A stretch of 64,000 nt of DNA. Origin: Tupaia tana (lineage: Eukaryota; Chordata; Mammalia; Scandentia; Tupaiidae). The translations under genes and the position numbers were made by a program. Numbering within the stretch: the stretch's first letter is position 1; each line of letters begins with the position of its first letter. The notes under the pieces are model-generated. The model was not told where the DNA came from and did no database searches. It worked only from the letters and a program-made list of their open reading frames with translations. Shown here piece after piece: positions 1-30,339 of the stretch. The stretch spans positions 310,001 through 374,000 of the forward strand of contig JAKSZU010000032.1 in assembly GCA_026018925.1 (NCBI GenBank), written 5' to 3'.

Positions 1-131
1 TGACCCTGACGCTAACTCCAACCATAACACTGAACCGACAACTAACAGTAGCCCTAAACTTACTCCCTCAAACTAAGTTCAAACCTAACCTAACCTGAAG
101 TCTAACTCAAACCATAGACCTAACCCTAACC
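1..131 (+). repeat. Partial satellite monomer at the left edge
   Basis: The window opens at about consensus base 38 (TGACCCTGACG), so the array runs on beyond the left edge. The unit is otherwise ordinary, apart from the GACAAC form of GAAAAC and a GAAGTC form of GAAGCC. Confidence 0.95.
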
Positions 132-136
132 CTAGG
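118..136 (-). repeat. Telomere-type core at the monomer junction (first clear example)
   Basis: The stretch ACCTAACCCTAACCCTAGG spans the end of one unit and the start of the next. On the minus strand it reads as telomeric TTAGGG units and contains two overlapping YTAGGGTTR matches (TTAGGGTTA and CTAGGGTTA) and the ten-mer TTAGGGTTAG. It recurs at nearly every monomer junction across the window. Common variants are CTAACACTAACC, CTAACCCGAACC and CTAACCATAACC, each of which breaks one site. Binding by telomere proteins is known for these motifs in vertebrates; occupancy here is inference. Confidence 0.85.
131..136. other. Conserved palindrome CCTAGG at the monomer boundary (first example)
   Basis: CCTAGG is present at most monomer junctions, so AvrII-type cleavage should give a 168-bp ladder. 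A second palindrome, CTTAAG at consensus bases 13-18, occurs only in units with the ACCTTAAGCT form. Units with ACCTGAAGCT lack it. Confidence 0.8.
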
Positions 137-157
137 CGGACACCTGAAGCTCCACCC

Positions 158-166
158 CAACCCTAA
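158..166 (-). promoter_or_regulatory. Third YTAGGGTTR match inside the monomer (first example)
   Basis: CAACCCTAA at consensus bases 27-35 is TTAGGGTTG on the minus strand and fits the duplex site consensus YTAGGGTTR known for TRF1/TRF2. It recurs in most units. Units reading CCAAACCTAACC or CACCCTAATC lose it. With the two junction sites this makes three potential sites per consensus monomer. Function is inferred from motif identity only. Confidence 0.5.
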
Positions 167-1019
167 CCTGACCCTGACGCTATCTCCAACCGTAACACTG
201 AACCGAAAACTAACAGTAGCCCTAAACTTACTCCCTCAAAGTAAGTTCCATCCTAACCTAACCTGAAGTCTAACTGAAACCATAGACCTAACCCTAACCC
301 TAGGCGATCACCTTAAGCTCAACCCCAACCCTAAAATGTCCCTGACATTAACTCCAACCATAACAGTTACCCGAAAACTAACAGTAGACCTAAACTTACT
401 CCCTCAAACTAAGTTCAAACCTAACCTAACCTGAAGCCTAAATCAAACCATACACCTAACCCTAACCCTAGGCGGACACCTTAAGCTCAACCCCAACCCT
501 AACCTGACCCTCACGCTAACTCCAACCGTAACACTGAACCGAAAACTAACAGTAACCCTAAACTTACTCCCTCAAACTAAGTTCAAACCTAACATAACCT
601 GAAGCCTAACTCAAACCATAGACCTAACCCTAACCCTAGGCGGACACCTTAAGCTCAACACCAACCCTAACCTGACCCTCACGCTATCTCCAACCGTAAT
701 ACTGAACCGAAAACTAACAGTAGCCCTAAACTTACTTCCTCAAACTAAGTCAATCCTAACCTAACCTGAAGCCTAAATGAAACCATAGACCTAACACTAA
801 CCCTAGGCGGAAACCTTAAGCTTAACCCCAACCCTAACCTGACCCTCACGGTAACTCCAACCGTACCACTGAACCGAAAACTAACAGTAACCCTAAACTT
901 ACTCCCTCAAACTAAGTTCAAACCTAACCTAACCTGAAGCGTATCTCAAACCATAGACCTAACCCTAACCCTAGGCGGACACCTTAAGCTCAACCCCAAC
1001 CATAACCTGACCCTGACGC

Positions 1020-2063
1020 TAACTCCAACCATAACAGTTACCCGAAAACTAACAGTCACCCTAAACTTACTCCCTCAAACTAAGTTCAAACATAACCTAA
1101 CCTGAAGCCTAAATCAAACCATACACCTAACCCTAACCCTAGGCGGACACCTCAAGCTCAACCCCAACCCTAACCTGACCCTGACGCTATCTCCAACCGT
1201 AACACTGAACTGAAAACTAACAATAGCCCTAAACTTACTCCCTCAAACTAAGTTCAAATCTAAACTAACCTGAAGCCTAACTCAAACAATACACCTAACC
1301 CGAACCCTAGGCGGACACCTTAAGCTAAACCCTAACCCTAACCTGGACCTGAGGCTAAAACCAACCATAACACTGAACCGAAAACTAACAATAGCCCTAA
1401 ACTTACTCCCTCAAACTAAGTTCCATCCTAACCTAACCTGAAGCCTAAATGAAACCATAGACCTAACCCTAACCCTAGGCGGACACCTTATGCTTAACCC
1501 CCACCCTAATCTGACCCTGACGCTTACTCCAACCGTAACACTGAACCGAAAACAAACAGTAGCACTAAACTTACTCCCTCAAACTAAGTTCAAACCTAAC
1601 CTAACCTGAAGCCTAAGTCAAACCATACACCTCACCCTAACCCTAGGCGGACACCTGAAGCTCAACCCCAACACTAACCGGACCCTGACTCTTACTCCAA
1701 CCGTAACACTGAACCGAAAACTAACAGTAGCCATAAACTTACTCCCTCAAACTAAGTTCAATCCTCACCTAACCTGAAGCCTAACTGAAACCATAGACCT
1801 AACCCTAAGCCTAGGCGGACACCTTAAGCTCAACCACAACACTAAAATGGCCATGACGCTAACTCCCACCATAACAGTTACCCGAAAACTAACAGTAGAC
1901 CTAAACTTACTCCCTAAAACTAAGGTCAAACCTAACCTAACCTGAAGCCTAAATCAAACCATACACCTAACCCTAACCCTAGGCGGACACCTTAATCTCA
2001 ACCCCAACCCTAACCTGACCCTCACGCTAAATCCAACCGTAACACTGAACCGAAAACAAACAG
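1020..2063 (+). repeat. Block A, copy 1 (about 6 monomers)
   Basis: This block opens with the AACAGTCACCC variant (1051) followed by AAACATAACC, and includes the three-unit cassette, CCTAACCGGACCC, and GACGCTAACTCCCACC. The same ordered rare variants recur at about 6,900-7,942, 9,590-10,610, 32,590-33,680 and 41,495-42,580. The AACAGTCACC marker lies at 1,051, 6,930, 9,617, 32,621, 39,677 and 41,525. Confidence 0.8.
1139..1642 (+). repeat. Three-monomer cassette of linked subfamilies (type example)
   Basis: Three successive subfamilies occur in fixed order. Unit 1 (1139-1306) ends with AAATCTAAACTAACC and CAAACAATACACC..CCCGAACCC. Unit 2 (1307-1474) carries GGACCTGAGGCTAAAACC, then TTCCATCC and AAATGAAACC. 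Unit 3 (1475-1642) starts CACCTTATGCTTAACCCCC and has GAAAACAAACAG. The unit-2 marker GG(A/G)CCTGAGG or its GGACTTGAGG form is seen about 32 times, near kb 1.35, 2.53, 6.05, 7.23, 8.07, 8.41, 9.92, 11.43, 14.63, 17.81, 19.82, 21.17, 23.68, 24.86, 26.88, 28.73, 29.89, 31.07, 32.93, 34.94, 36.62, 38.13, 39.98, 41.83, 43.67, 48.54, 49.55, 50.89, 53.07, 55.43, 60.29 and 63.81. It is usually preceded by the unit-1 type and often followed by unit 3. This is the basic ordered module of the array. Confidence 0.85.
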
Positions 2064-5000
2064 TAGCCCTAAACTTACTCCCTCAAACTAAGTTCAAACC
2101 TAACCTAACCTGAAGCCTAACTCAAACTATATACCTAACCATAACCCTAGGCGGACACCTTAAGCTCCACCCCAACCCTATCCTGGCCCTGACGCTAACT
2201 CCAACCATAACAGTTACCCAAAAACTAACAGTAGACCTAAACTTACTCCCTCAAACTTAGTTCAAACCTAACCTAAGCTGAAGCGTATCTCAAACCATAG
2301 ACCTAACCCTAACACTTGGCGGACACCTTAAGCTCAACCCCAACCCTAACTTGACCCTGACGCTAACTCCAACCATAACAGTTACCCAAAAACTAACAGT
2401 CGCCCTAAACTTACTCCCTCAAACTAAGTGCAAATCTAAACTAACCTGAAGCCTAACTCAAACAATACACCGAACCCGAACCCTAGGCGGACACCTTAAG
2501 CTCAACCCCAACCCTAACCTGGACCTGAGGCTAAAACCAACCGTAACACTGAACCGAAAACTAACAGTAGCCCTAAACTTACTCCCTCAAACTAAGTTCC
2601 ATCCTAACCTAACCTGAAGCCTAAATGAAACCATAGACCTAACCCTAACCCTAGGCGGACACCTTATGCTTAACCCCCACCCTAACCTGACCCTGACGCT
2701 TACTCCAACCGTAACACTGAACCGAAAACAAACAGTAGCCCTAAACTTACTCCCTCAAACTAAGTTCAATCCTAACCTAACCTGAAGCCTAACTGAAACC
2801 ATAGACCTAACCCTAACCCTAGGCGGACACCTTAAGCTCAACCCCAACCCTAAAATGTCCCTGACACTAACTCCAACCATAACAGTTACCGGAAAACTAA
2901 CAGTAGACCTAAACTTATTCCCTCAAACTAAGTTCAAACCTAACCTAACCTGAAGCCTAACTCAAACCATAGACCTAACCCTAACCCGAGGCGGACACCT
3001 GAAGCTCCACCTCAACCCTAACCTGACCCTGACGCTATCTCCAACCGTAACACTGAACCGAAAACTAACAGTAGCCCTAAACTTACTCCCACAAACTAAG
3101 TTCACACCTAACCTAACCTGAAGCCTAACTCAAACCACAGACCTAACCCTAACCCTAGGCGGACACCTTAAGCTCAACCCCAATCCTAACCTGACCCTGA
3201 CGCTAACTCCAACCATAACACTGAACCGAAAAATAACAGTAGCCCTAAACTTACTTCCTCAAACTAAGTTCAATCCTAACCTAACCTGAAGCCTAAATGA
3301 AACCATAGACCTAACACTAACCATAGGCGGAAACCTTAAGCTTAACCCGAACGCTAACCTGACCCTCACGGTAACTCCAACCGTACGACTGAACCGAAAA
3401 CTAACAGTAACCCTAAACTTACTCCCTCAAACTAAGTTCAAACCTAACCTAACCTGAAGCCTAACTCAAACCATAGACCTAACCCTAACCCTAGGCGGAC
3501 ACATGAAGCTAAACCCCAACCCTAACCTGACCCTGACGCTATCTCCAACCGTAACACTGAACCGAAAACAAACAGTAGCCCTAAACTTACTCCCTCAACC
3601 TAAGTTCAAACCTAACCTAACCTGAAGCCTAACTCAAACCATAGACCTAACCCTAACCCTACGCGGACACCTGAAGCTCAACCCCAACCCTAACCTGATC
3701 CTGAATCTTACTCCAACTGTAACACTGAACCGAAAACTAACAGTAGCCCTAAACTTACTCCCTCAAACTAAGTTCAATCCTAACCTAACCTGAAGCCTAA
3801 CTGAAACCATAGACCTAACCCTAACCCTAGGCGGACACCTGAAGCTCAACTCCAACCCTAACCTGACCCTGACGCTCTCTCCAACCGTAACACTGAACCG
3901 AAAACTAACAGTAGCCCTAAACTTACTCCCTCAAACTAAGTTCAAACCTAACCTAACCTGAAGCCTAACTCAAACCATAGACCTAACCCTAACCCTAGGC
4001 GGACACCTTAAGCTCAACCCCAACCCTAACATGGCCCTGACGCTAACTCCAACCATAACAGTTACCCGAAAACTAACAGTAGCCATAAACTAACTCCCTC
4101 AAACTAAGTTCAAACCTAACCTAACCTGAAGCCTAACTCAAACCACAAACCTAACCCTAACCCTAGGCGGACACCTTAAGCTCAACCCCAAACCTAACCT
4201 GACCCTGACTCTTACTCCAACCGTAACACTGAACCAAAAACTAACAGTAGCCCTAAACTTACTCCCTCAAGCTAAGTTCAAACCTAACCTAACCTGAAGC
4301 CTAACTGAAACCATAGACCTAACCCTAACCCTAGGCGGACACCTTAAGCTCAACCCCAACCCTAACCTGACCCTGACGCTAACTCCAACCATAACACTGA
4401 ACCGACAACTAACAGTAGCCCTAAACTTACTCCCTCAAACTAAGTTTAAACCTAACCTAACCTGAAGCCTAACTCAAACCATAGACGTAACCCTAACCCT
4501 AGGCGGACACCTTAAGCTCAACCCCAACCCTAACCTGACCCTGACGCTAACTCCAACCATAACACTGAACCGACAACTAACAGTAGCCCTAAACTTACTC
4601 CCTCAAATTAAGTTCAAACCTAACCTAACCTGAAGCCTAACTCAAACCATAGACCTAACCCTAACCCTAGGCGGACACCTGAAACTCCACCCCAACCCTA
4701 ACCTGACCCTGACGCTATCTCAAACCGTAACACTGAACCGAAAACTAACAGTAGCCCTAAACTTACTCCCTCAAACTAAGTTCACACCTAACCTAACCTG
4801 AAGCCTAACTCAAACCATACACCTAACCCTAACCCTAGGCGGACACCTTAAGCTCAACCCCAAACCTAACCTGACCCTGACGCTTACTCCAACCGTAACA
4901 GTTAACTGAAAACTAACAGTAGCCCTAAACTGACTCCCTCAAACTAAGTTCAAACCTAACCTAACCTGAAGCCTAAATCAAATCATAGACCTAACCCTAA

Positions 5001-5729
5001 CCCTAGGCCGACACCTGAAGATAAACCCCAACCCTAACCTGTCCCTGACGCTATCTCCAACCGTAACACTGAACCGAAAACAAACAGTAGCCCTAAACTT
5101 ACTCCCTCAAGCTAAGTTCAAACCTAACCTAACCTGAAGCCTAACTCAAACCATAGACCTAACCCTAACCCTACGCGGACACATGAAGCTCAACCCCAAC
5201 CCTAACCTGATCCTGACTCTTACTCCAACTGTAACACTGAACCGAAAACTAACAGTACCCCTAAACTTACTCCCTCAAACTAAGTTCAATCCTAACCTAA
5301 CCTGAAGCCTAACTGAAACCATAGACCTAACCCTAACCCTAGGCGGACACCTTAAGCTCAACCCCAACCCTATAATGGCCCTGACGCTAACTCCAACCAT
5401 AACAGTTACCCGAAAACTAACAGTAGACCTAAAATTACTCCCTCAAACTAAGTTCAAACCTAACCTAACCTGAAGCCTAACTCAAACCATAGACCTAACC
5501 CTAACCCTAGGCGGACACCTGAAGCTCAACCCCAACCCTAACCTGACCCTGACGCTATCTCCAACCGTAACACTGAACCGAAAACTAACAGTAGCCCTAA
5601 ACTTACTCCCTAAAACTAAGTTCAAACCAAACCTAACCTGAAGCCTAACTCAAACCATAGACCTAACCCTAACCCTAGGCAGACACCTTAAGCTCCACCC
5701 CAAACCTAACCTGACCCTGACTCTTACTC

Positions 5730-6763
5730 CAACCGTAACACTGAACCGAAAACTAATAGTAGCCCTAAACTTACTCCCTCAAGCTAAGTTCAAACCTAAC
5801 CTAACCTGAAGCCTAACGGAAACCATAGACCTAACCCTAACCTAAGGCGGACACCTTAAGCTCAACCCCAACCCTAACCTGACCCTGACGCTAACTCCAA
5901 CCATAACACTGAACCGAAAACAAACAATAGCCCTAAACTTACTCCCTCAAACTAAGTTCAAATCTAAACTAACCTGAAACCTAACTCAAACAATACACCT
6001 AACCCGAACCCTAGGCGGACACCTTAAGCTAAACCCCAACCCTAACCTGGGCCTGAGGCTAAAACCAACCGTAACACTGAACCGAAAACTAACAGTAGCC
6101 CTAAACTTACTCCCTCAAACTAAGCTCCATCCTAACCTAACCTGAAGCCTAAATGAAACCATAGACCTAACCCTAACCCTAGGCGGACACCTTATGCTTA
6201 ACCCCCACCCTAACCTGACCCTGACGCTATCTCCAACCGTAACACTGAACCGAAAACTAACAGTAGCCCTAAACTTACTCCTTCAAACTAAGTTCAAACC
6301 TAACCTAACCTGAAGCCTAACTCAAACCATAGACCTAACCCTAACCCTAGACGGACACCTTAAACTCAACCCCAGCCCTAACGTGGCCCTGACGCTAACT
6401 CCAACCATAACACTGAACCGAAAACTAACAGTTGCCCTAAACTTACTCCCCCAAGCTAAGTTCAAACCTAACCTAACCTGAAGCCTAACTCAAACCACAG
6501 ACCTAACCCTAACCCTAGGCGGACATCTTAAGCTCAACCCCAACCCTAACCGGACCCTGACGCTAACTCCAACCATAACAGTTACCCGAAAACTAACAGT
6601 AGCCCTAAACTTACTCCCTTAAACTAAGTTCAAACATGAACTAACCTGAAGCCTAAATCAAACCATACACCTAACCCTAACCCTAGGCAGACACCTGAAG
6701 CTCAACCCCAACCCTAACCTGACCCTGACGCTATCTCCAACCGTAACACTGAACCGAAAACTA
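5730..6763 (+). repeat. Block B, copy 1 (about 6 monomers)
   Basis: Markers in order are GAAAACTAATAGTAG, CTAACGGAAACC, CCTAAGGCGG, GGGCCTGAGG, CTAGACGGACACCTTAAACTC, CCAGCCCTAACGTGGCC and CTAACCGGACCC. The same string is found at about 8,081-9,114 (offset 2,351 bp, 14 monomers minus 1) and at 11,104-12,140 (offset 3,023 bp from the second, 18 monomers minus 1). Confidence 0.82.
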
Positions 6764-6899
6764 ACAGTAGCCCTAAAATTACTCCCTCAACCTAAGTTCA
6801 CACCTAACCTAACCTGAAGCCTAACTCAAACCACAGACCTAACCCTAACCCTAGGCGGACACCTTATGCTTAACCCCACCCTAACCTGACCTTGACGCT

Positions 6900-7942
6900 A
6901 ACTCCAACCATAACAGTTACCCGAAAACTAACAGTCACCCTAAACTTACTCCCTCAAACTAAGTTCAAACATAACCTAACCTGAAGCCTAAATCAAACCA
7001 TACACCTAACCCTAACCCTAGGCGGACACCTCAAGCTCAACCCCAACCCTAACCTGACACTGACGCTATCTCCAACCGTAACACTGAACCGAAAACTAAC
7101 AATAGCCCTAAACTTACTCCCTCAAACTAAGTTCAAATCTAAACTAACCTGAAGCCTAACTCAAACAATACACCTAACCCGAACCCTAGGCGGACACCTT
7201 AAGCTAAACCCTAACCCTAACCTGGACCTGAGGCTAAAACCAACCGTAACACTGAACCGAAAACTAACAGTAGCCCTAAACTTACTCCCTCAAACTAAGT
7301 TCCATCCTAACCTAACCTGAAGCCTAAATGAAACCATAGACCTAACCCTAACCCTAGGCGGACACCTTATGCTTAACCCCCACCCTAATCTGACCCTGAC
7401 GCTTACTCCAACCGTAACACTGAACCGAAAACAAACAGTAGCCCTAAACTTACTCCCTCAAACTAAGTTCAAACCTAACCTAACCTGAAGCCTAAATCAA
7501 ACCATACACCTCACCCTAACCCTAGGCAGACACCTGAAGCTCAACCCCAACCCTAACCGGACCCTGACTCTTACTCCAACCGTAACACTGAACCGAAAAC
7601 TAACAGTAGCCCTAAACTTACTACCTCAAACTAAGTTCAATCCTCACCTAACCTGAAGCCTAACTGAAACCATAGACCTAACCCTAAGCCTAGGCGGACA
7701 CCTCAAGCTCAACCACAACCCTAAAATGGCCGTGACGCTAACTCCCACCATAACAGTTACCCGAAAACTAACAGTAGACCTAAACTTACTGCCTCAAACT
7801 AAGTTCAAACCTAACCTAACCTGAAGCCTAAATCAAACCATACACCTAACCCTAACCCTAGGCGGACACCTTAATCTCAACCCCAACCCTAACCTGACCC
7901 TCACGCTAAATCCAACCGTAACACTGAACCGAAAACAAACAA
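6900..7942 (+). repeat. Block A, copy 2
   Basis: The offset from copy 1 is 5,879 bp (35 monomers minus 1 bp). It shares CAGTCACCC, AAACATAACC, CACCCTAATCTGACC, CCTAACCGGACC and TCCCACCATAAC in the same order. Similarity to copy 1 ends within the unit carrying GAAAACAAACA(G/A)TAG. Confidence 0.8.
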
Positions 7943-8080
7943 TAGCCCTAAACTTACTCCCTCAAACTAAGTTCAAATCTAAACTAACCTGAAGCCTAAC
8001 TCAAACAATACACCTAACCCGAACCCTAGGCGGACACCTTAAGCTAAACCCCAACCCTAACCTGGGCCTGAGGCTAAAAC

Positions 8081-9418
8081 CAACCGTAACACTGAACCGA
8101 AAACTAATAGTAGCCCTAAACTTACTCCCTCAAGCTAAGTTCAAACCTAACCTAACCTGAAGCCTAACGGAAACCATAGACCTAACCCTAACCTAAGGCG
8201 GACACCTTAAGCTCAACCCCAACCCTAACCTGACCCTGACGCTAACTCCAACCATAACACTGAACCGAAAACAAACAATAGCCCTAAACTTACTCCCTCA
8301 AACTAAGTTCAAATCTAAACTAACCTGAAGCCTAACTCAAACAATACACCTAACCCGAACCCTAGGCGGACACCTTAAGCTAAACCCCAACCCTAACCTG
8401 GGCCTGAGGCTAAAACCAACCGTAACACTGAACCGAAAACTAACAGTAGCCCTAAACTTACTCCCTCAAACTAAGTTCCATCCTAACCTAACCTGAAGCC
8501 TAAATGAAACCATAGACCTAACCCTAACCCTAGGAGGACACCTTATGCTTAACCCCCACCCTAACCTGACCCTGACGCTATCTCCAACCGTAACACTGAA
8601 CCGAAAACTAACAGTAGCCCTAAACTTACTCCTTCAAACTAAGTTCAAACCTAACCTAACCTGAAGCCTAACTCAAACCATAGACCTAACCCTAACCCTA
8701 GACGGACACCTTAAACTCAACCCCAGCCCTAACGTGGCCCTGACGCTAACTCCAACCATAACACTGAACCGAAAACTAACAGTTGCCCTAAACTTACTCC
8801 CCCAAGCTAAGTTCAAACCTAACCTAACCTGAAGCCTAACTCAAACCACAGACCTAACCCTAACCCTAGGCGGACATCTTAAGCTCAACCCCAACCCTAA
8901 CCGGACCCTGACGCTAACTCCAACCATAACAGTTACCCGAAAACTAACAGTAGCCCTAAACTTACTCCCTTAAACTAAGTTCAAACATGAACTAACCTGA
9001 AGCCTAAATCAAACCATACACCTAACCCTAACCCTAGGCAGACACCTGAAGCTCAACCCCAACCCTAACCTGACCCTGACGCTATCTCCAACCGTAACAC
9101 TGAACCGAAAACTAACAATAGCCCTAAACTTACTCCCTCAAACTAAGTTCAAATCTAAACTAACCTGAAGCCTAACTCAAACAATACACCTAACCCAAAC
9201 ACTAGGCGGACACCTGAAGCTCCACCCCAACCCTAACCTGACCCTGACGCTATCTCCAACCGTAACACTGAACCGAAAACTAACAGTAGCCCTAAACTTA
9301 CTCCCTCAAACTAAGTTCACACCTAACCTAACCTGAAGCCTAACTCAAACCACAGACCTAACCCTAACCCTAGGCGGACACCTTATGCTTAACCCCACCC
9401 TAACCTGACCTTGACGCT
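8081..9418 (+). repeat. Block B, copy 2
   Basis: It shares the CTAGACGG marker (ending near 8,701) and all of block B. It continues together with copy 3 through AACACTAGGCGGACACCTG and the CTTATGCTTAACCCCACCC unit, up to about 9,418, where CTAACTCC replaces the CTTACTCC of copy 3. Confidence 0.8.
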
Positions 9419-9589
9419 AACTCCAACCATAACAGTTACCCGAAAACTAACAGTCGCCCTAAACTTACTCCCTCAAACTAAGTTCAAACCTAACCTAACC
9501 TGAAGCGTATCTCAAACCATAGACCTAACCCTAACCCTAGGCGGACACCTTAAGCTCAACCCCAACCCTAACCTGACCCTGACGCTAAC

Positions 9590-10980
9590 TGCAACCATAA
9601 CAGTTACCCGAAAACTAACAGTCACCCTAAACTTACTCCCTCAAACTAAGTTCAAACATAACCTAACCTGAAGCCTAAATCAAACCATACACCTAACCCT
9701 AACCCTAGGCGGACACCTCAAGCTCAACCCCAACCCTAACCTGACCCTGACGCTATCTCCAACCGTAACACTGAACCGAAAACTAACAATAGCCCTAAAC
9801 TTACTCCCTCAAACTAAGTTCAAATCTAAACTAACCTGAAGCCTAACTCAAACAATACACCTAACCCGAACCCTAGGCGGACACCTTAAGCTAAACCCTA
9901 ACCCTAACCTGGACCTGAGGCTAAAACCAACCGTAACACTGAACCGAAAACTAACAGTAGCCCTAAACTTACTCCCTCAAACTAAGTTCCATCCTAACCT
10001 AACCTGAAGCCTAAATGAAACCATAGACCTAACCCTAACCCTAGGCGGACACCTTATGCTTAACCCCCACCCTAATCTGACCCTGACGCTTACTCCAACC
10101 GTAACACTGAACCGAAAACAAACAGTAGCCCTAAACTTACTCCCTCAAACTAAGTTCAAACCTAACCTAACCTGAAGCCTAAATCAAACCATAAACCTCA
10201 CCCTAACCCTAGGCGGACACCTGAAGCTCAACCCCAACCCTAACCGGACCCTGACTCTTACTCCAACCGTAACACTGAACCGAAAACTAACAGTAGCCCT
10301 AAACTTACTACCTCAAACTAAGTTCAATCCTCACCTAACCTGAAGCCTAACTGAAACCATAGAGCTAACCCTAAGCCTATGCGGACACCTTAAGCTCAAC
10401 CACAACCCTAAAATGGCCGTGACGCTAACTCCCACCATAACAGTTACCCGAAAACTAACAGTAGACCTAAACTTACTGCCTCAAAATAAGTTCAAACCTA
10501 ACCTAACCTGAAGCCTAAATCAAACCATACACCTAACCCTAACCCTAGGCGGTCACCTTAATCTCAACCCCAACCCTAACCTGACCCTCACGCTAAATCC
10601 AAACGTAACACTGAACCGAAAACTAACAGTAGCCCTAAACTTACTCCCTCAAACTACATTCAAACCTAACCTAACCTGAAGCCTAACTCAAACCATAGAC
10701 CTAACCCTAACCCTAGGCGGACACCTGAAGCTCAACCCCAACCCTAACCTGACCCTGACGCTATCTCCAACCGTAACACTGAACCGAAAACTAACAGTAG
10801 CCCTAAACTTACTCCCTCAAACTAAGTCCAAACCTAACCTAACCTGAAGCCTAACTCAAACCATAGACCTAACCCTAACCCTAGGCGGACACCTTAAGCT
10901 CAACCCCAACCCTAACATGGCCCTGACGCTAACTCCAACCATAACAGTTACCCGAAAACTAACAGTAGCCCTAAACTAAC
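9590..10980 (+). repeat. Block A, copy 3, extended
   Basis: The offset from copy 2 is 2,687 bp (16 monomers minus 1 bp). Beyond about 10,610 it keeps matching the copy at 41.5-42.9 kb (shared AAACTAC(A/G)TTC, AAGTCCAAACC and CCTAACATGGCCC) and no longer matches copies 1 and 2. It is a mosaic of two block lineages 32 kb apart. Confidence 0.75.
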
Positions 10981-11103
10981 TCCCTCAAACGAAGTTCAAA
11001 CCTAACCTAACCTGAAGCCTAACTCAAACCACAAACCTCACCCTAACCCTAGGCGGACACCTGAAGCTCAACCCCAAACCTAACCTGACCCTGACTCTTA
11101 CTC

Positions 11104-12440
11104 CAACCGTAACACTGAACCGAAAACTAATAGTAGCCCTAAACTTACTCCCTCAAGCTAAGTTCAAACCTAACCTTACCTGAAGCCTAACGGAAACCAT
11201 AGACCTAACCCTAACCCAAGGCGGACACCTTAAGCTCAACCCCAACCCTAACCTGACCCTGACGCTAACTCCAACCATAACACTGAACCGAAAACAAACA
11301 ATAGCCCTAAACTTACTCCCTCAAACTAAGTTCAAATCTAAACTAACCTGAAGCCTAACTCAAACAATACACCTAACCCGAACCCTAGGCGGACACCTTA
11401 AGCTAAACCCCAACCCTAACCTGGGCCTGAGGCTAAAACCAACCGTAACACTGAACCGAAAACTAACAGTAGCCCTAAACTTACTCCCTCAAACTAAGTT
11501 CCATCCTAACCTAACCTGAAGCCTAAATGAAACCATAGACCTAACCCTAACCCTAGGCAGACACCTTATGCTTAACCCCCACCCTAACCTGACCCTGACG
11601 CTATCTCCAACCGTAACACTGAACCGAAAACTAACAGTAGCCCTAAACTTACTCCTTCAAACTAAGTTCAAACCTAACCTTACCTGAAGCCTAACTCAAA
11701 CCATAGACTTAACCCTAACCCTAGACGGACACCTTAAACTCAACCCCAGCCCTAACGTGGCCCTGACGCTAACTCCAACCATAACACTGAACCGAAAACT
11801 AACAGTTGCCCTAAACTTAATCCCCCAAGCTAAGTTCAAACCTAACCTAACCTGAAGCCTAACTCAAACCACAGACCAAACCCTAACCCTAGGCGGACAC
11901 CTTAAGCTCAACCCCAACCCTAACCGGACCCTGACGCTAACTCCAACCATAACAGTTACCCGAAAACTAACAGTAGCCCTAAACTTACTCCCTCAAACTA
12001 AGTTCAAACATGAACTAACCTGAAGCCTAAATCAAACCATACACCTAACCCTAACCCTAGGCAGACACCTGAAGCTCAACCCCAACCCTAACCTGACCCT
12101 GACGCTATCTCCAACCGTAACACTGAACCGAAAACTAACAATAGCCCTAAACTTACTCCCTCAAACTAAGTTCAAATCTAAACTAACCTGAAGCCTAACT
12201 CAAACAATACACTTAACCCAAACACTAGGCGGACACCTGAAGCTCCACCCCAACCCTAACCTGACCCTGACGCTATCTCCAACCGTAACACTGAACCGAA
12301 AACTAACAGTAGCCCTAAACTTACTCCCTCAAACTAAGTTCACACCTAACCTAACCTGAAGCCTAACTCAAACCACAGACCTAACCCTAACCCTAGGCGG
12401 ACACCTTATGCTTAACCCCACCCGAACCTGACCTTGACGC
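11104..12440 (+). repeat. Block B, copy 3
   Basis: The offset to copy 2 is 3,023 bp. Private changes include CCCAAGGCGG for CCTAAGGCGG and CCTTACC for CCTAACC. Its right part lies inside the first half of the 19-monomer tandem duplication, so block B was already present when that duplication formed. Confidence 0.8.
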
Positions 12441-14727
12441 TTACTCCAACCGTAACAGTTAAACGAAAACTAACAGTAGCCCTAAATTTACTCCCTCAAA
12501 CTAAATTCAAACCTAACCTAACCTGAAGCCTAACTCAAACCATAGACCTAACCCTAACCCTAGGTGGAAACCTTAAGCTCAACCCCAACCCTAAAATGAC
12601 CCTGACGCTAACTCCAAAAATAACAGTTACCCAAAAACTAACAGTAGACCTAAAATTACTCCCTCAAACTAAGTTCAAACCTAACCTAACCTGAAGCCTA
12701 AATCAAACCATACACCTAACCCTAACCCTAGGCGGACACCTGAAGCTCAACCCCAACCCTAACCTGACCCTGACGCTATCTCCAACCGTAACACTGAACC
12801 GAAAACTAACAGTAGCCCTAAACTTACTCCCTCAAACTAAGTTCAAACCTAACCTAACCTGAAGCCTAACTCAAACCATAGACCTAACCCTAACCCTAGG
12901 CGGACACCTTAAGCTCCACCCCAACCCTAACCTGGCCCTGACGCTAACTCCAACCATAACAGTTACCCGAAAACTAACAGTCGCCCTAAACTTACTCCCT
13001 CAAACTAAGTTCAAACCTAAACTAACCTGAAGCGTATCTCAAACCATAGACCTAACCCTAACCCTAGGCGGACACCTGAAGCTAAACCCCAACTAAAACC
13101 TGACCCTGACGCTATCTCCAACCGTAACACTGAACCGAAAACAAACAGTAGCCCTAAACTTACTCCCTCAAGCTAAGTTCAAACCTAACCTAACCTGAAG
13201 CCTAACTCAAACCATAGACCTAACCCTAACCCTACGCGGACACCTGAAGCTCAACCCCAACCCTAACCTGACCCTGACTCTTACTCCAACTGTAACACTG
13301 AATCGAAAACTAACAGTAGCCCTAAACTTACTCCCTCAAACTAAGTTCAATCCTAACCTAACCTGAAGCCTAACTGAAACCATAGACCTAACCCTAACCC
13401 TAGGCGGACACCTTAAGCTCAACCCCAACCCTAAAATGTCACTGACGCTAACTCCAACCATAACAGTTACCCGAAAACTAACAGTAGACCTAAAATTACT
13501 CCCTCAAACTAAGTTCAAACCTAACCTAACCTGAAGCCTAAATCAAACCATACACCTAACCCTAACCCTAGGCGGACACCTTAAGCTCAACCCCAAACCT
13601 AACCTGACCCTTATGCTAAATCCAACCGTAACACTGAACCGAAAACTAACAGTAGCCCTAAACTTACTCCCTCAAACTAAGTTCAAACCTAACCTAACCT
13701 GAAGCCTAACTCAAACCATAGACCTAATCCTAACCCTAGGCGGACACCTGAAGCTCAACCCCAAACCTAACCTGACCCTGACGCTATCTCCCACCGTAAC
13801 ACTGAACCGAAAACTAACAGTAGCCCTAAACTTACTCCCTCAAACTAACTTCAAACCTAACCTAACCTGAAGCCTAACTGAAACCATAGACCTAACCCTA
13901 ACCCTAGGAGGACACCTTAAGCTCAACCCCAACCCTAAAATGTCCCTGACGCTAACTCCAACCATAACAGTTACCCAAAAACTAACAGTAGACCTAAACT
14001 TACTCCCTCAAGCTAAGTTCAAACCTAACCTAACCTGAAGCCTAACTGAAATCATAGACCTAACCCTAACCCAAGGAGGACACCTTAAGCTCAACCCCAA
14101 CCCTACCCTGACCCTGACGCTAACTCCAACCATAACACTGAACCGACAACTAACAGTAGCCCTAAACTTACTCCCTCAAACTAAGTTCAAACCTAACCTA
14201 ACCTGAAGCCTAACTCAAACTATATACCTAACCCTAACCCTGGGCGGACACCTTAAGCTCCACCCCAACCCTAACCTGGCCCGGACGCTAACTTCAACCA
14301 TAACAGTTACCCGAAAACTAACAGTAGACCTAAACTTACTCCCTCAAGCTAAGTTCAAACCTAACCTAACCTGAAGCGTATCTCAAACCATAGACCTAAC
14401 CCTAACCCTAGGCGGACACCTTAAGCTCAACCCCAAACCTAACCTGACCCTGACGCTAACTCCAACCATAACAGTACCCGAAAACTAACAGTCGCCCTAA
14501 ACTTACTCCCTCAAACTAAGTTCAAATCTAAACTAACATGAAGCCTAACTCAAACAATACACCGAACCCGAACAATAGGCAGACACCTTAAGCTCAACCC
14601 CAAACCTAACCTGGACCTGAGGCTAAAACCAACCTTAACACTGAACCGAAAACTAACAGTAGCCCTAAACTTACTCCCTCAAACTAAGTTCCGTCCTAAC
14701 CTAACCTGAAGCCTAACTGAAACCATA
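11530..14727 (+). repeat. 19-monomer higher-order unit, tandem copy 1
   Basis: Every position compared matches the sequence 3,190 bp downstream (19 x 168 minus 2). Reading both copies line by line I found about eight base differences, for example near 11,709, 12,505, 12,697, 12,896, 13,847, 14,283 and 14,573. This implies about 99.7% identity and a recent event. The unit contains the subfamily markers CTAGACGG, AACACTAGG, TAGGTGGAAACC, CTAAAATGTCACTG, CTTATGCTAAATCC, GGAGGACACC and CAGTACCCG. Confidence 0.92.
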
Positions 14728-17700
14728 GACCTAACCCTAACCCTAGGCAGACACCTTATGCTTAACCCCCACCCTAACCTGACCCTGACGCTATCTCCAA
14801 CCGTAACACTGAACCGAAAACTAACAGTAGCCCTAAACTTACTCCTTCAAACTAAGTTCAAACCTAACCTTACCTGAAGCCTAACTCAAACCATAGACCT
14901 AACCCTAACCCTAGACGGACACCTTAAACTCAACCCCAGCCCTAACGTGGCCCTGACGCTAACTCCAACCATAACACTGAACCGAAAACTAACAGTTGCC
15001 CTAAACTTAATCCCCCAAGCTAAGTTCAAACCTAACCTAACCTGAAGCCTAACTCAAACCACAGACCAAACCCTAACCCTAGGCGGACACCTTAAGCTCA
15101 ACCCCAACCCTAACCGGACCCTGACGCTAACTCCAACCATAACAGTTACCCGAAAACTAACAGTAGCCCTAAACTTACTCCCTCAAACTAAGTTCAAACA
15201 TGAACTAACCTGAAGCCTAAATCAAACCATACACCTAACCCTAACCCTAGGCAGACACCTGAAGCTCAACCCCAACCCTAACCTGACCCTGACGCTATCT
15301 CCAACCGTAACACTGAACCGAAAACTAACAATAGCCCTAAACTTACTCCCTCAAACTAAGTTCAAATCTAAACTAACCTGAAGCCTAACTCAAACAATAC
15401 ACTTAACCCAAACACTAGGCGGACACCTGAAGCTCCACCCCAACCCTAACCTGACCCTGACGCTATCTCCAACCGTAACACTGAACCGAAAACTAACAGT
15501 AGCCCTAAACTTACTCCCTCAAACTAAGTTCACACCTAACCTAACCTGAAGCCTAACTCAAACCACAGACCTAACCCTAACCCTAGGCGGACACCTTATG
15601 CTTAACCCCACCCGAACCTGACCTTGACGCTTACTCCAACCGTAACAGTTAAACGAAAACTAACAGTAGCCCTAAATTTACTCCCTCAAACTAAGTTCAA
15701 ACCTAACCTAACCTGAAGCCTAACTCAAACCATAGACCTAACCCTAACCCTAGGTGGAAACCTTAAGCTCAACCCCAACCCTAAAATGACCCTGACGCTA
15801 ACTCCAAAAATAACAGTTACCCAAAAACTAACAGTAGACCTAAAATTACTCCCTCAAACTAAGTTCAAACCTAACCTAACCTGAAGTCTAAATCAAACCA
15901 TACACCTAACCCTAACCCTAGGCGGACACCTGAAGCTCAACCCCAACCCTAACCTGACCCTGACGCTATCTCCAACCGTAACACTGAACCGAAAACTAAC
16001 AGTAGCCCTAAACTTACTCCCTCAAACTAAGTTCAAACCTAACCTAACCTGAAGCCTAACTCAAACCATAGACCTAACCCTAACCATAGGCGGACACCTT
16101 AAGCTCCACCCCAACCCTAACCTGGCCCTGACGCTAACTCCAACCATAACAGTTACCCGAAAACTAACAGTCGCCCTAAACTTACTCCCTCAAACTAAGT
16201 TCAAACCTAAACTAACCTGAAGCGTATCTCAAACCATAGACCTAACCCTAACCCTAGGCGGACACCTGAAGCTAAACCCCAACTAAAACCTGACCCTGAC
16301 GCTATCTCCAACCGTAACACTGAACCGAAAACAAACAGTAGCCCTAAACTTACTCCCTCAAGCTAAGTTCAAACCTAACCTAACCTGAAGCCTAACTCAA
16401 ACCATAGACCTAACCCTAACCCTACGCGGACACCTGAAGCTCAACCCCAACCCTAACCTGACCCTGACTCTTACTCCAACTGTAACACTGAATCGAAAAC
16501 TAACAGTAGCCCTAAACTTACTCCCTCAAACTAAGTTCAATCCTAACCTAACCTGAAGCCTAACTGAAACCATAGACCTAACCCTAACCCTAGGCGGACA
16601 CCTTAAGCTCAACCCCAACCCTAAAATGTCACTGACGCTAACTCCAACCATAACAGTTACCCGAAAACTAACAGTAGACCTAAAATTACTCCCTCAAACT
16701 AAGTTCAAACCTAACCTAACCTGAAGCCTAAATCAAACCATACACCTAACCCTAACCCTAGGCGGACACCTTAAGCTCAACCCCAAACCTAACCTGACCC
16801 TTATGCTAAATCCAACCGTAACACTGAACCGAAAACTAACAGTAGCCCTAAACTTACTCCCTCAAACTAAGTTCAAACCTAACCTAACCTGAAGCCTAAC
16901 TCAAACCATAGACCTAATCCTAACCCTAGGCGGACACCTGAAGCTCAACCCCAAACCTAACCTGACCCTGACGCTATCTCCCACCGTAACACTGAACCGA
17001 AAACTAACAGTAGCCCTAAACTTACTCCCTCAAACGAACTTCAAACCTAACCTAACCTGAAGCCTAACTGAAACCATAGACCTAACCCTAACCCTAGGAG
17101 GACACCTTAAGCTCAACCCCAACCCTAAAATGTCCCTGACGCTAACTCCAACCATAACAGTTACCCAAAAACTAACAGTAGACCTAAACTTACTCCCTCA
17201 AGCTAAGTTCAAACCTAACCTAACCTGAAGCCTAACTGAAATCATAGACCTAACCCTAACCCAAGGAGGACACCTTAAGCTCAACCCCAACCCTACCCTG
17301 ACCCTGACGCTAACTCCAACCATAACACTGAACCGACAACTAACAGTAGCCCTAAACTTACTCCCTCAAACTAAGTTCAAACCTAACCTAACCTGAAGCC
17401 TAACTCAAACTATATACCTAACCCTAACCCTGGGCGGACACCTTAAGCTCCACCCCAACCCTAACCTGGCCCTGACGCTAACTTCAACCATAACAGTTAC
17501 CCGAAAACTAACAGTAGACCTAAACTTACTCCCTCAAGCTAAGTTCAAACCTAACCTAACCTGAAGCGTATCTCAAACCATAGACCTAACCCTAACCCTA
17601 GGCGGACACCTTAAGCTCAACCCCAAACCTAACCTGACCCTGACGCTAACTCCAACCATAACAGTACCCGAAAACTAACAGTCGCCCTAAACTTACTCCC

Positions 17701-17928
17701 TCAAACTAAGTTCAAATCTAAACTAACATGAAGCCTAACTCAAACAATACACCGAACCCGAACCCTAGGCAGACACCTTAAGCTCAACCCCAAACCTAAC
17801 CTGGACCTGAGGCTAAAACCAACCTTAACACTGAACCGAAAACTAACAGTAGCCCTAAACTTACTCCCTCAAACTAAGTTCCGTCCTAACCTAACCTGAA
17901 GCCTAACTGAAACCATAGACCTAACCCT
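14728..17928 (+). repeat. 19-monomer higher-order unit, tandem copy 2
   Basis: This is the direct neighbour of copy 1. At the right border the expected CTAGGCAGACACCTTATGC is replaced near 17,928 by CTAGGCGGACACCTTAAGC, and the match to copy 1 stops. The CAGTACCCG deletion marker is at about 14,471 in copy 1 and 17,661 in copy 2. Confidence 0.92.
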
Positions 17929-18785
17929 AACCCTAGGCGGACACCTTAAGCTCAACCCCAACCCTAAAATGTCCCTGACACTAACTCCAAACATAACAGT
18001 TACCCGAAAACTAACAGTAGACCTAAACTTACTCCCTCAAACTAAGTTCAAACCTAACCTAACCTGAAGCCTAAATCAAACCATACACCTAACCCTAACC
18101 CTAGGCGAACACCTTAAGCTCAACCCCAACCCTAACCTGACCCTCACGGTAACTCCAACCGTACCACTGAACCGAAAACTAACAGTAGCCCTAAACTTAC
18201 GCCCTCAAACTAAGTCGACACCTAACCTAACCTGAAGCCTAACTCAAACCATAGAACTAACCCTAACCCTAGGCGGACACATGAAGCTAAACCCAACCCT
18301 AACCTGTCCCTGACGCTATCTCCAACCGTAACACTGAACCGAAAACAAACAGTAGCCCTAAACTTACTCCCTCAAGCTAAGTTCAAACCTAACCTAACCT
18401 GAAGCCTAACTCAAACCATAGACCTAACCCTAACCCTACGCGGACAACTGAAGCTCAACCCCAACCCTAACCTGATCCTGACTCTTACTCCAACTGTAAC
18501 ACTGAACCGAAAACTAACAGTACCCCTAAACTTACTCCCTCAAACTAAGTTCAATCCTAACCTAACCTGAAGCCTAACTGAAACCATAGACCTAACCCTA
18601 ACCTTAGGCGGACACCTTAAGCTCAACCCCAACCCTAAAATGGCCCTGACGCTAACTCCAACCATAACAGTTACCCGAAAACTAACAGTAGACCTAAAAT
18701 TACTCCCTCAAACTAAGTTCAAACCTAACCTAACCTGAAGCCTAACTCAAACCATAGACCTAACCCTAACCCTAGGCGGACACCT
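17550..18785 (+). repeat. Block C, copy 1 (about 7 monomers)
   Basis: It holds CAGTACCCG, CTAACATGAAGCC, GGCAGACACC, TTCCGTCC, CTAGGCGAACACC, TTACGCCCTC and TAAGTCGACACC. The whole series recurs 4,699 bp downstream (28 monomers minus 5 bp). The left part belongs to the second 19-mer copy, so the block crosses the border of that duplication. Confidence 0.82.
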
Positions 18786-18824
18786 TAAGCTCAACCCCAA
18801 CCCTAACATGGCCCTGACGCTATC

Positions 18825-20035
18825 TCCAACCATAACAGTTACCGGAAAACTAACAGTAGCCCTAAACTTACTCCCTCAAACTAAGTTCAAACCTAACCTA
18901 CCTGAAGCCTAACTCAAACCACAAAACTAACCCTAACCCTAGGCGGACACCTGAAGCTCAACCCCAACCCTAACCTGACCCTGACTCTTACTCCAACCGT
19001 AACACTGAACCGAAAACTAACAGTAGCCCTAAACTTACTCCCTCAAACTAAGTTCAAACCTAACCTAACATGAAGCCTAACTCAAACCATAGACCTAACC
19101 CTAACCCTAGGCGGACACATGAAGCTAAACCCCAATCCTAACCTGACCCTGACGCAATCTCCAACAGTAACACTGAACTGAAAACAAACAGTAGCCCTAA
19201 ACTTACTCCCTCAAGCTAAGTTCAAACTTAACCTAACCTGAAGCCTAACTCAAACCATAGACCTAACCTTAACCCTACGCGGACACCTGAAGCTCAACCG
19301 CAACCCTAACCTGATCCTGACTCTTACTCCAACTGTAACACTGAACCGAAAACTAACAGTAGCCCTAAACTTACTCCCTCAAACTAAGTTCAAACCTAAC
19401 CTAACCTGAAGCCTAACTCAAACTATATACCTAACCCAACCCTGGGCGGACACCTTAAGCTCCACCCCAACCCTAACCTGGCCCTGACGCTAACTCCAAC
19501 CATAACAGTTACCCGAAAACTAACAGTAGACCTAAACTTAAACCCTCAAGCTAAGTTCAAACCTAACCTAACCTGAAGCGTATCTCAAACCATAGACCTA
19601 ACCCTAACCATAGGCGGACACCTTAAGCTCAACCCCAAACCTAACCTGACCCTGACGCTAACTCCAACCATAACAGTTACCCGAAAACTAACAGTCGCCC
19701 TAAACTTACTCCCTCAAACTAAGTTCAAATCTAAACTAACCTGAAGCCTAACTCAAAGAATACAATGAACCCGAACCCTAGGCGGACACCTTAAGCTCAA
19801 CCCGAAACCTAACCTGGACCTGAGGCTAAAACCAACCTTAACACTGAACCGAAAACTAACAGTAGCCCTAAACTTACTCCCTCAAACTAAGTTCCATCCT
19901 AACCTAACCTGAAGCCTAACTGAAACCATAGACCTAACCCTAACCCTAGGCGGACACCTTAAGCTCAACCCCAACCCTAAAATGTCCCTGACACTAACTC
20001 CAACCATAACAGTTACCGGAAAACTAACAGTAGCC
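18825..20035 (+). repeat. 7-monomer duplication, copy 1
   Basis: Markers are CAGTTACCGG, CCTACCTGAAGC (4-bp shortened), GACGCAATCTCC, CTGAACTGAAAAC, CAACCGCAACCC, AACTATATACC and CAAAGAATACAATG. They recur in order from about 20,010 at an offset of 1,174 bp. The offset rises to 1,342-1,343 bp after an extra monomer near 20,615-20,780. Confidence 0.8.
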
Positions 20036-21370
20036 CTAAACTTACTCCCTCAAACTAAGTTCAAACCTAACCTACCTGAAGCCTAACTCAAACCACAAAC
20101 CTAACCCTAACCCTAGGCGGACACCTGAAGCTCAACCCCAACCCTAACCTGACCCTGACTCTTACTCCAACCGTAACACTGAACCGAAAACTAACAGTAG
20201 CCCTACACTTACTCCCTCAAACTAAGTTCAAACCTAACCTAACCTGAAGCCTAACTCAAACCATAGACCTAACCCTAACCCTAGGCGGACACATGAAGCT
20301 AAACCCCAACCCTAACCTGACCCTGACGCAATCTCCAACCGTAACACTGAACTGAAAACAAACAGTAGCCCTAAACTTACTCCCTCAAGCTAAGTTCAAA
20401 CTTAACCTAACCTGAAGCCTAACTCAAACCATAGACGTAACCCTAACCCTACGCGGACACCTGAAGCTCAACCGCAACCCTAACCTGATCCTGACTCTTA
20501 CTCCAACTGTAACACTGAACCGAAAACTAACAGTAGCCCTAAACTTACTCCCTCAAACTAAGTTCAAACCTAACCTAACTTGAAGCCTAACTCAAACCAT
20601 AGACCTAACCCTAACCCTAGGCGGACATCTGAAGCTCAACCCCAACCCTAACCTGACCCTGACTTTATCTCCAAACGTAACACTGAACCGAAAACTAACA
20701 GTAGCCCTAAACTTACTCCCTCAAACTAATTTCAAACCTAACCTAACCTGAAGCCTAACTCAAACTATATACCTAACCCTAACCCTGGGCGGACACCTTA
20801 AGCTCCACCCCAACCCTAACCTGGCCCTGACGCTGACTCCAACCATAACAGTTACCCGAAAACTAACAGTAGACCTAAACTTAATCCCTCAAGCTAAGTT
20901 CAAACCTAACCTAACCTGAAGCGTATCTCAAACCATAGACCTAACCCTAACCATAGGCGGACACCTTAAGCTCAACCCCAAACCTAACCTGACCCTGACG
21001 CTAACTCCAACCATAACAGTTACCCGAAAACTAACAGTCGCCCTAAACTTACTCCCTCAAACTAAGTTCAAATCTAAACTAACCTGAAGCCTAACTCAAA
21101 GAATACAATGAACCCGAACCCTAGGCGGACACCTTAAGCTCAACCCGAAACCTAACCTGGACTTGAGGCTAAAACCAACCTTAACACTGAACCGAAAACT
21201 AACAGTAGCCCTAAACTTACTCCCTCAAACTAAGTTCCATCCTAACCTAACCTGAAGCCTAACTGAAACCATAGACCTATCCCTAACCCAAGGCGGACAC
21301 CTTAAGCTCAACCCCAACCCTAAAATGTCCCTGACACTAACTCCAACCATAACAGTTACCGGAAAACTAA
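20010..21370 (+). repeat. 7+1-monomer duplication, copy 2
   Basis: It repeats the marker series of 18,825-20,035. One additional monomer (with CTAGGCGGACATCTG and GACTTTATCTCC) sits between the AACTGTAAC unit and the AACTATATACC unit. Such a one-unit difference between duplicates is typical of unequal exchange or conversion in register. Confidence 0.78.
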
Positions 21371-22248
21371 CAGTAGACCTAAACTTACTCCCTCAAACTA
21401 AGTTCAAACCTAACCTAACCTGAAGCCTAAATCAAACCATACACCTAACCCTAACCCTAGGCGGACACCTTAAGCTCAACCCCAACCCTAACCTGACCCT
21501 CACGCTAACTACAACCATAACACTGAACCGAAAACTAACAGTAGCCCTAAACTTACTCCCTCAAGCTAAGTTCAAACCTAACCTAACCTGAAGCCTAACT
21601 CAAACCATAGACCTAACCCTAACCCTAGGCGGACACCTTAAGCTCAACCCCAACCCTAACCTGACCCTCACGCTATCTCCAACCGTAATACTGAACCGAA
21701 AACTAACAGTAGCCCTAAACTTACTTCCTCAAACTAAGTTCAATCCTAACCTAACCTGAAGCCTAAATGAAACCATAGACCTAACACTAACCCTACGCGG
21801 ACACCTGAAGCTCAACCCCAACCCTAACCTGATCCTGACTCTTACTCCAACTGTAACACTGAACCGAAAAATAACAGTAGCCCTAAACTTACTACCTCAA
21901 ACTAAATTCAAACCTAACCTAACATGAAGCCTAACTCAAACCATAGACCTAACCCTAACCCTAGGCGGACATCTGAAGCTCAACCCCAACCCTAACCTGA
22001 CCCTGACTTTATCTCCAAACGTAACACTGAACCGAAAACTAACAGTAGCCCTAAACTTACTCCCTCAAACTACGTTCAAACCTAACCTAACCTGAAGACT
22101 AACTCAAACTATATACCTAACCCTAACCCTGGGCGGACACCTTAAGCTCCACCCCAACCCTAACCTGGCCCTGACGCTAACTCCAACCATAACAGTTACC
22201 CGAAAACTAACAGTAGACCTAAACTTAATCCCTCAAGCTAAGTTCAAA

Positions 22249-23480
22249 CCTAACCTAACCTGAAGCGTATCTCAAACCATAGACCTAACCCTAACCCTAG
22301 GCGGACACCTTAAGCTCAACCCCAAACCTAACCTGACCCTGACGCTAACTCCAACCATAACAGTACCCGAAAACTAACAGTCGCCCTAAACTTACTCCCT
22401 CAAACTAAGTTCAAATCTAAACTAACATGAAGCCTAACTCAAACAATACACCGAACCCGAACCCTAGGCAGACACCTTAAGCTCAACCCCAAACCTAACC
22501 TGGACCTGAGGCTAAAACCAACCTTAACACTGAACCGAAAACTAACAGTAGCCCTAAACTTACTCCCTCAAACTAAGTTCCGTCATAACCTAACCTGAAG
22601 CCTAACTGAAACCATAGACCTAACCCTAACCCTAGGCGGACACCTTAAGCTCAACCCCAACCCTAAAATGTCCCTGACACTAACTCCAAACATAACAGTT
22701 ACCCGAAAACTAACAGTAGACCTAAACTTACTCCCTCAAACTAAGTTCAAACCTAACCTAACCTGAAGCCTAAATCAAACCATACACCTAACCCTAACCC
22801 TAGGCGAACACCTTAAGCTCAACCCCAACCCTAACCTGACCCTCACGGTAACTCCAACCGTACCACTGAACCGAAAACTAACAGTAGCCCTAAACTTACG
22901 CCCTCAAACTAAGTCGACACCTAACCTAACCTGAAGCCTAACTCAAACCATAGACCTAACCCTAACCCTAGGCGGACACATGAAGCTAAACCCAACCCTA
23001 ACCTGTCCCTGACGCTATCTCCAACCGTAACACTGAACCGAAAACAAACAGTAGCCCTAAACTTACTCCCTCAAGCTAAGTTCAAACCTAACCTAACCTG
23101 AAGCCTAACTCAAACCATAGACCTAACCCTAACCCTACGCGGACAACTGAAGCTCAACCCCAACCCTAACCTGATCCTGACTCTTACTCCAACTGTAACA
23201 CTGAACTGAAAACTAACAGTACCCCTAAACTTACTCCCTCAAACTAAGTTCAATCCTAACCTAACCTGAAGCCTAACTGAAACCATAGACCTAACCCTAA
23301 CCTTAGGCGGACACCTTAAGCTCAACCCCAACTCTAAAATGGCCCTGACGCTAACTCCAACCATAACAGTTACCCGAAAACTAACAGTAGACCTAAAATT
23401 ACTCCCTCAAACTAAGTTCAAACCTAACCTAACCTGAAGCCTAACTCAAACCATAGACCTAACCCTAACCCTAGGCGGAC
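22249..23480 (+). repeat. Block C, copy 2
   Basis: CAGTACCCG at 22,360 and TAAGTCGACA at 22,910 correspond to 17,661 and 18,211. Both pairs give an offset of 4,699 bp. Only a few substitutions were seen, such as TTCCGTCATAACC for TTCCGTCCTAACC and CCCAACTCTAAAATGG for CCCAACCCTAAAATGG. Confidence 0.82.
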
Positions 23481-30335: not shown

Positions 30336-30339
30336 ACCA

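Follow-up and report, generated by a model that had tools for sequence, protein, structure and literature searches.

FA-SAT of the cat was considered for a presumed TAACCC origin, of which the text passages on it make no mention, and it is not used as a comparison here. Mammalian satellites with the telomere hexamer as their basic unit are known, according to the passage of PMC9498494 that cites Fry and Salser 1977. In the plant Prospero autumnale, the sections of PMC4273535 on the satellite PaB6 describe a 249-bp monomer with seven intact TTAGGG hexamers among other sequence, a GC content of 44% and a very high copy number, and its authors state there that the origin of PaB6 could not be established unambiguously. 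Vertebrate heterochromatic ITS (het-ITS) are large telomere-like blocks, chiefly centromeric or pericentromeric, in the relevant part of PMC6410037, and degenerate TTAGGG stretches divide the subtelomere domains of several human chromosome arms in the corresponding part of PMC8122249.

Here we analyse a 168-bp satellite that occupies a stretch of 64,000 bp (hereafter the window; C453:310001-374000 of a mammal assembly of 2.948 Gb in 1198 contigs). Like the mammalian hexamer satellites of the passage in PMC9498494, it has the telomere hexamer as its basic unit; unlike them, as far as that passage describes them, its hexamers are frozen in a 168-bp monomer, 27-36% changed and arranged in two related halves. 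With PaB6, to which we liken it on the basis of the sections named, it shares the tandem array, the vertebrate-type TTAGGG within the monomer and a sub-repeat structure, whereas the present monomer is telomere-like in every window and seams to telomere tracts were found. Het-ITS, as characterised in that part of PMC6410037, are blocks of telomeric repeats, while here the tract spans no more than 0.46-1.9 kb at the edges examined, the 168-bp satellite making up the bulk. As in the human subtelomeres of the PMC8122249 account, a decayed telomere tract lies between other DNA and a further block in two homologous regions of this genome (on contigs C275 and C553); unlike the human stretches described there, the tract runs straight into the satellite at the satellite's own telomeric core. 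The 168-bp satellite therefore belongs with the known telomere-hexamer satellites, and differs in being of nucleosome length, telomeric in every part and still linked to a telomere tract.

Results

The array and its monomers

Tandem Repeats Finder counts 381.2 copies of 168 bp from position 1 to position 64000 of the window (Table 1). Cyclic alignment to an iterated consensus, with the two partial end monomers left out, yields 380 full monomers, 318 of which are distinct. Identity to the consensus averages 94.4% (range 84.5-98.8%), and the 380 monomers together carry no insertion and 35 deleted bases relative to it. The GC content of the window is 45-47%, with a GC skew of about -0.55 all along. 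Pairwise monomer divergence averages 9.5% (about 4000 random pairs) and stays roughly constant with distance, up to 79 monomers apart. Seventy pairs of monomers are identical and 41 of these are spaced 11, 19, 42 or 53 monomers apart, which reveals that multi-monomer blocks were copied. The array is satellite DNA in the usual sense, long, head-to-tail and non-coding with a monomer above 60 bp, and its homogenised monomers and spaced identical pairs are those of a family in concerted evolution.

The 64-kb window holds no open reading frame of at least 200 aa; a coding role for the array was therefore dropped, and no coded product is apparent for the satellite. G-quadruplex-type runs, only six in the 64 kb, were also dropped as a feature. 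A single exact pattern searched in prokaryote genomes, and another in viral contigs, gave no match to the satellite, and neither did blastn of three monomers against plasmids and phages. A prior description of it was sought by six monomer pieces of 16-17 letters, which had no match in the full-text literature.

Table 1. Features of the satellite in the 64-kb window
Feature	Window position	Strand	Description
168-bp satellite array	1..64000	+ (C-rich strand)	Head-to-tail, single orientation, whole window; 380 full monomers
Reference monomer, as named in the preliminary description	132..299	+	28 hexamers counted from CTAGG; monomer position p is obtained by subtracting 131 from the window position
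Slipped stretch 1	141..167 (monomer about 10-36)	+	One base off the main hexamer phase
Slipped stretch 2	231..257 (monomer about 100-126)	+	Same slip pair, 90 bp further; supports the 78 + 90 bp reading
Second telomere-like stretch	252..263	+	Hexamers 21-22 (CCTAAC CTAACC); hexamer phase slips back here
Intact telomeric core	288..302	+	Hexamers 27 + 28 (CTAACC CTAACC) into CTA of the next monomer

The six-base signal of the consensus

All copies descend from one unit, and the shuffle tests were therefore run on the single consensus and not on the 380 copies. In the CTAGGC frame, the columns of its 28 hexamers count C 20, T 18, A 17, A 22, A 13 or C 12, and C 18, exactly as a preliminary description drawn from the letters of the window had claimed; the three exact, in-phase CTAACC of that description were recovered at hexamers 22, 27 and 28, and its T share of 17% corresponds to 29 of the 168 bases. 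The six-base signal reported there also withstands shuffling. At lag 6, the consensus has an identity of 53.0%, compared with 29.9% for dinucleotide shuffles (0/5000 as high) and 33.0% for trinucleotide shuffles (0/500). In its best fixed phase it matches CTAACC at 63.7%, compared with 38.5% for dinucleotide shuffles (maximum 54.8%; 0/5000 reach it). Period words of 4, 5, 7 and 8 bases were rejected for their poor fixed-phase fit; with slips permitted, the best 5-mer scores 31 and the best 7-mer 27, the latter among only seven chosen words.

The hexamers had further been described as standing in perfect phase, which is correct only net over the monomer. Within it, the consensus alignment slips by +1 at monomer position 10, -1 at 36, +1 at 100 and -1 at 126. 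These form two slip pairs, each 26 bp long and of net zero, that lie 90 bp apart. At a lag of 78 bp (168 - 90), identity is 57.1%, compared with 47.2% (s.d. 2.8) in hexamer-permuted monomers, a value reached by 1/5000 for that lag; taken as the highest of 14 lags, the half-repeat is equalled by 90/5000 permuted monomers, and a freer alignment of both halves by 2/60. The spacing of the slip pairs together with the lag-78 identity leads us to conclude, with moderate confidence, that the monomer is built of two halves related to each other, one of 13 and one of 15 hexamers (78 + 90 bp). The fixed unit of 28 hexamers proposed earlier holds for the 168-bp monomer, but is qualified by its two related halves and by the length variants in hexamer steps described below.

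Array edges and their seams to decayed telomere tracts

We read five array edges, two of them on C453 (near 3.417 Mb and at 4,177.98 kb) and one each on C275, C397 and C553. Three of the five are seams to decayed telomere tracts of 0.46 to 1.9 kb, and all three leave the satellite register at the intact CTAACC core, so that a physical link to a telomere tract exists on C453, on C275 and on C553. At the C453 seam near 3.417 Mb, the C-rich strand reads ...AAACCTTACAC-CTAACC-CTAACC, followed, where CTAGGC is expected, by about 0.46 kb of CCCTAA, CCCTAG and CCCTGA and then by other DNA (LINE-like by eye). At 85,789.4 kb on C275, the satellite exits at hexamers 27/28 into 1.87 kb of CCCTAA, CCGTAC, CCATA and CCCTAAA, beyond which lies unrelated, tandem-looking DNA. 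Matches common to the flanks of these two seams are at most 12 bp long, the level of chance. On C553, a tract with its exit at hexamers 27/28 was predicted before that edge was read, and the edge proved to have one, 1.9 kb long. This seam is not independent of the one on C275, because the two lie in homologous blocks (C275 85785201-85799000 and C553 1911501-1919800; a likeness of 89.5% across 8.3 kb) that are either paralogues or alleles and hold unrelated DNA, the decayed telomere tract and the satellite. The unrelated DNA of these blocks consists of GCTGAGTCAAAGCTC-like units, tandem by eye.

The other two edges are without a tract: at 4,177.98 kb on C453 the satellite ends at hexamer 27 against other DNA, and on C397, at about 730.4 kb and on the opposite side of the array, it breaks near hexamer 16. 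A sixth edge, at 1,763.6 kb on C453, ends in 100 N.

All three tract seams pass from unrelated DNA through the tract into the satellite, and the TTAGGG strand leads away from the unrelated DNA, the direction that it has at a real chromosome end. The seam profiles are sharp, the telomere score falling from 0.7 to 0.3 and the satellite score rising from 0.3 to 0.85-0.9 over just one or two windows. No graded intermediates appear beside the seam in the profiles of C275 and C553, and the monomers next to the tract are ordinary. A 168-bp period already present in the C275 decayed tract was considered and dropped, the strongest lags there being those of the hexamer. The seam alone is neutral on which side, tract or satellite, came first.

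Length variants of the core

Within the window, no run exceeds two CTAACC. Genome-wide, a pattern for cores extended beyond the normal two units finds 10 places, and its reversed control none; the list is incomplete because the pattern misses the C453 and C553 seams, which have other letters. Nine of the 10 places lie inside arrays and carry 4-7 CTAACC, and the remaining one is the C275 seam. Array monomers with four consecutive CTAACC occur on C33, C251, C464 and C608, and near the one on C464 the satellite score falls to 0.49 and 0.61. A single hybrid monomer recurs at three places on C337 and two on C708; 6 or 7 CTAACC take the place of its hexamers 27-28 and 1-7, and from hexamer 8 onwards it is back in register. 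It is located at 264419, 266753 and 269087 on C337 and at 521720 and 524054 on C708, and this spacing of 2334 bp, equal to about 14 monomers, makes it a local higher-order repeat. The variants with 4-7 CTAACC reveal that the core changes by whole hexamers.

These variants bear on the direction of descent at the seams. The satellite core might have expanded at array edges, by slippage or telomerase, and the product then decayed, so that the tract grew out of the satellite. Core runs of 4-7 units inside arrays, where two are usual, would agree with such growth, as would the position of all three tract seams at the core and the lack of graded intermediates. However, the longest in-array core run seen is seven units, and the tracts of 0.46 and 1.87 kb are independent of one another, with different flanks and different variant hexamers (CCCTAG/CCCTGA vs CCGTAC/CCATA). 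We regard growth of the tract from the satellite as a serious, if rather unlikely, explanation of the seams; it is compatible with an earlier telomeric ancestry of the satellite itself.

Alternative sources of the hexamer signal

An unrelated satellite might instead have caught a short telomere core, through recombination or telomerase repair, and be merely C- and A-rich over the rest of its monomer. The same genome does hold a 208-227-bp repeat in which unrelated, GC-rich DNA surrounds blocks of (CTAACC)5-8, and PaB6 carries TTAGGG scattered among other sequences in the sections cited (PMC4273535). In the present monomer, however, telomere hexamers exceed chance along the full length. All 28 of 28 overlapping 42-bp windows lie above the 95th percentile of shuffled 42-mers and 23/28 lie above all 2000 shuffles, the weakest falling in monomer 79-138. 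When hexamers 27, 28 and 1 are removed, the CTAACC match still amounts to 60.7%, against 38% in mononucleotide shuffles (0/5000), and the remainder without hexamers 21, 22, 26-28 and 1 still has a score of 45, whereas none of 2000 shuffles exceeds 8. The telomere-like windows and the score of this remainder both argue against capture of a core by an unrelated satellite, which we consider improbable.

Descent from a different hexamer, (CTAAAC)n, or from a mixed microsatellite is also conceivable. With the phase fixed, CTAAAC agrees with the consensus at 108/168 bases and CTAACC at 107/168 (next word 97), and the earlier reading of the telomeric word as the column consensus falls short there by one base. 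It holds once slips are permitted: in a wrap-around alignment of all hexamer necklaces, CTAACC comes first with a score of 68 and 123/168 bases matched, while CTAAAC reaches 55. Both the seam tracts and the hexamers that are exact belong likewise to the CTAACC type, and an ancestor other than the telomere word seems very improbable. Chance periodicity in a low-complexity, C/A-rich sequence, inflated by 380 copies, can be dismissed nearly outright, since for all the skewed composition (GC skew as above) and the fact that the copies amount to one observation, the signal of the single consensus is reached by 0/5000 mononucleotide, 0/5000 dinucleotide and 0/500 trinucleotide shuffles.

The intact core and variation within the array

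The 64 kb contain 820 YTAGGGTTR sites on the minus strand, about two per monomer, and none on the plus strand; we take this motif to be the TRF1/TRF2 site. It is possible, judging from these letters, that the core could recruit telomere-binding proteins. (TTAGGG)3 was found on neither strand at the 28 loci examined, 26 of which are satellite, and the satellite does not form a large block of telomere hexamers as such, as heterochromatic ITS do. A CENP-B box in the monomer was rejected, the best match to what we presume to be the form of this motif having four mismatches.

Among the minor alleles at non-telomeric sites of the array, the telomeric base is not enriched. It accounts for 268/1446 of them (18.5%), compared with 33.6% when permuted among sites of the same consensus base (4884/5000 permutations as high or higher), and counted by site for 6/33, compared with 37.7% (4991/5000). 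Telomeric states thus do not appear to segregate still in the array, a result that we count against descent from a telomere tract; either the decay is older than the present arrays, or the rare variants have other causes. Conservation is 94.8% at telomeric sites and 93.8% at other sites, which gives little sign of selection on the telomeric motif as a whole.

Distribution in the genome

Scoring of the best 40 among 787 candidates gives the satellite at least 119 matches genome-wide, spread over many contigs. On C453 (4.19 Mb), it was present in 30 of 42 sampled stretches, in two of the 30 only partly; the other 12 hold unrelated DNA (3.20-3.412, 4.177 and 1.764-1.770 Mb) or N (1.785 Mb). Samples carry it on C397 (28.6 Mb) between the contig start and about 730.4 kb, and on C275 (86.1 Mb) between 85.789 Mb and the contig end. 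It was also sampled where C642, C420 and C297 begin, and on C642 onwards to 1.0 Mb. Of 19 contig ends sampled, four are satellite and none is telomere. C608 has the satellite at 1.497 Mb and a perfect TTAGGG tract from 1,710,001 (read to 1,710,500), with N directly before it; the contig ends at 1,715,603. As far as sequence positions can indicate, the arrays would fit large heterochromatic blocks, centromeric or terminal, at which the assembly stops.

Between 1.70 and 1.80 Mb, C453 switches orientation. The switch spans N runs and other DNA, with the N runs at about 1,763.6 kb and 1,785 kb separating plus- from minus-oriented satellite; it may be a product of scaffolding and plays no part in the argument.

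Several further loci were noted in the course of the analysis. At C508:10001-12500, between N runs, lies another satellite, of 208-227-bp GC-rich units with TTTGACC repeats, whose (CTAACC)5-8 block varies by whole hexamers among copies. The pattern (CCCTAA)6 occurs genome-wide 56 times in forward and 947 times in reverse orientation, many of the first 100 listed lying inside large contigs, and C486 (L076, near 727-768) has seven CTAACC in non-satellite DNA. An element of about 250 bp, SINE-like by eye, is found at L077 2436-2700, with copies in L028, L037, L049, L058, L064, L065, L076 and others; ten mammal SINE consensus sequences had no match in the sampled loci, a set that does not include L077. 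The element could reveal the lineage of the host. A contig of 16,812 bases encodes a COX1 with 9 differences from its best PDB match among 447 positions, counted on the alignment; the best matches are those of pig, sheep and cattle, on which basis we take the host to be a mammal. A colugo was considered as the host and not adopted, the text passages on it containing nothing about telomeric repeats. Finally, C531 (229.8 Mb) contains a full-length COX1 at 156655777-156657117 that scores equal to the mitochondrial contig C1198; it may have been copied into the nucleus very recently, or the assembly may have joined it there.

Discussion

In sum, the column profile, the shuffles, CTAACC as best necklace, the telomere-like windows, the half-repeat, the seams, the core variants and the order of divergence lead us to conclude that, very probably, this non-coding satellite descended along its full length from a (CCCTAA)n telomere tract by the course proposed below. 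The telomeric ancestry of the whole monomer, which the preliminary description had suggested, is well supported, every part of the unit being telomere-like. Its statement that the tract decayed and was then amplified is borne out by order of magnitude: the consensus differs by 27-36% from the telomere word, and the monomers by 9.5% from one another.

The proposed course would begin with a telomere tract, located either at the end of a chromosome or where a break had healed, which may have lost its upkeep by telomerase and decayed by base changes and one-base slips. A piece of 13-15 hexamers would then have doubled to give the 78 + 90 = 168-bp unit, a step for which the evidence of the two halves is moderate. 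This unit of nucleosome length would have been multiplied and block-homogenised into long arrays, in keeping with the block copies observed, and unequal exchange, circles or similar recombination may have driven their growth. The surviving CTAACC core is a site both of whole-hexamer gain and of joining to decayed telomere tracts, two features seen directly in the variants and seams. Given the size of the arrays and the position of some of them at contig ends, constitutive heterochromatin, either centromeric or at the ends of chromosomes, is the most likely product.

A fuller version of this descent can be offered only tentatively, and we hold it to be unlikely in its entirety. Here the satellite would be a centromeric or terminal family born from a worn chromosome-end telomere, doubled to nucleosome size and grown into megabase heterochromatin that shelterin could bind. 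If true, the parent tract would still be joined to its descendant at array edges, and about two candidate TRF-type sites would have been kept in every unit.

The origins of satellite families are seldom visible, since their parents are lost, while in this family the ancestry is legible base by base. The decayed tract, joined at a constant point in those seams that have one, and the variants in hexamer steps together make the path from telomere to satellite testable, both in this mammal and in species related to it, and they raise the question of whether such heterochromatin binds telomere proteins.
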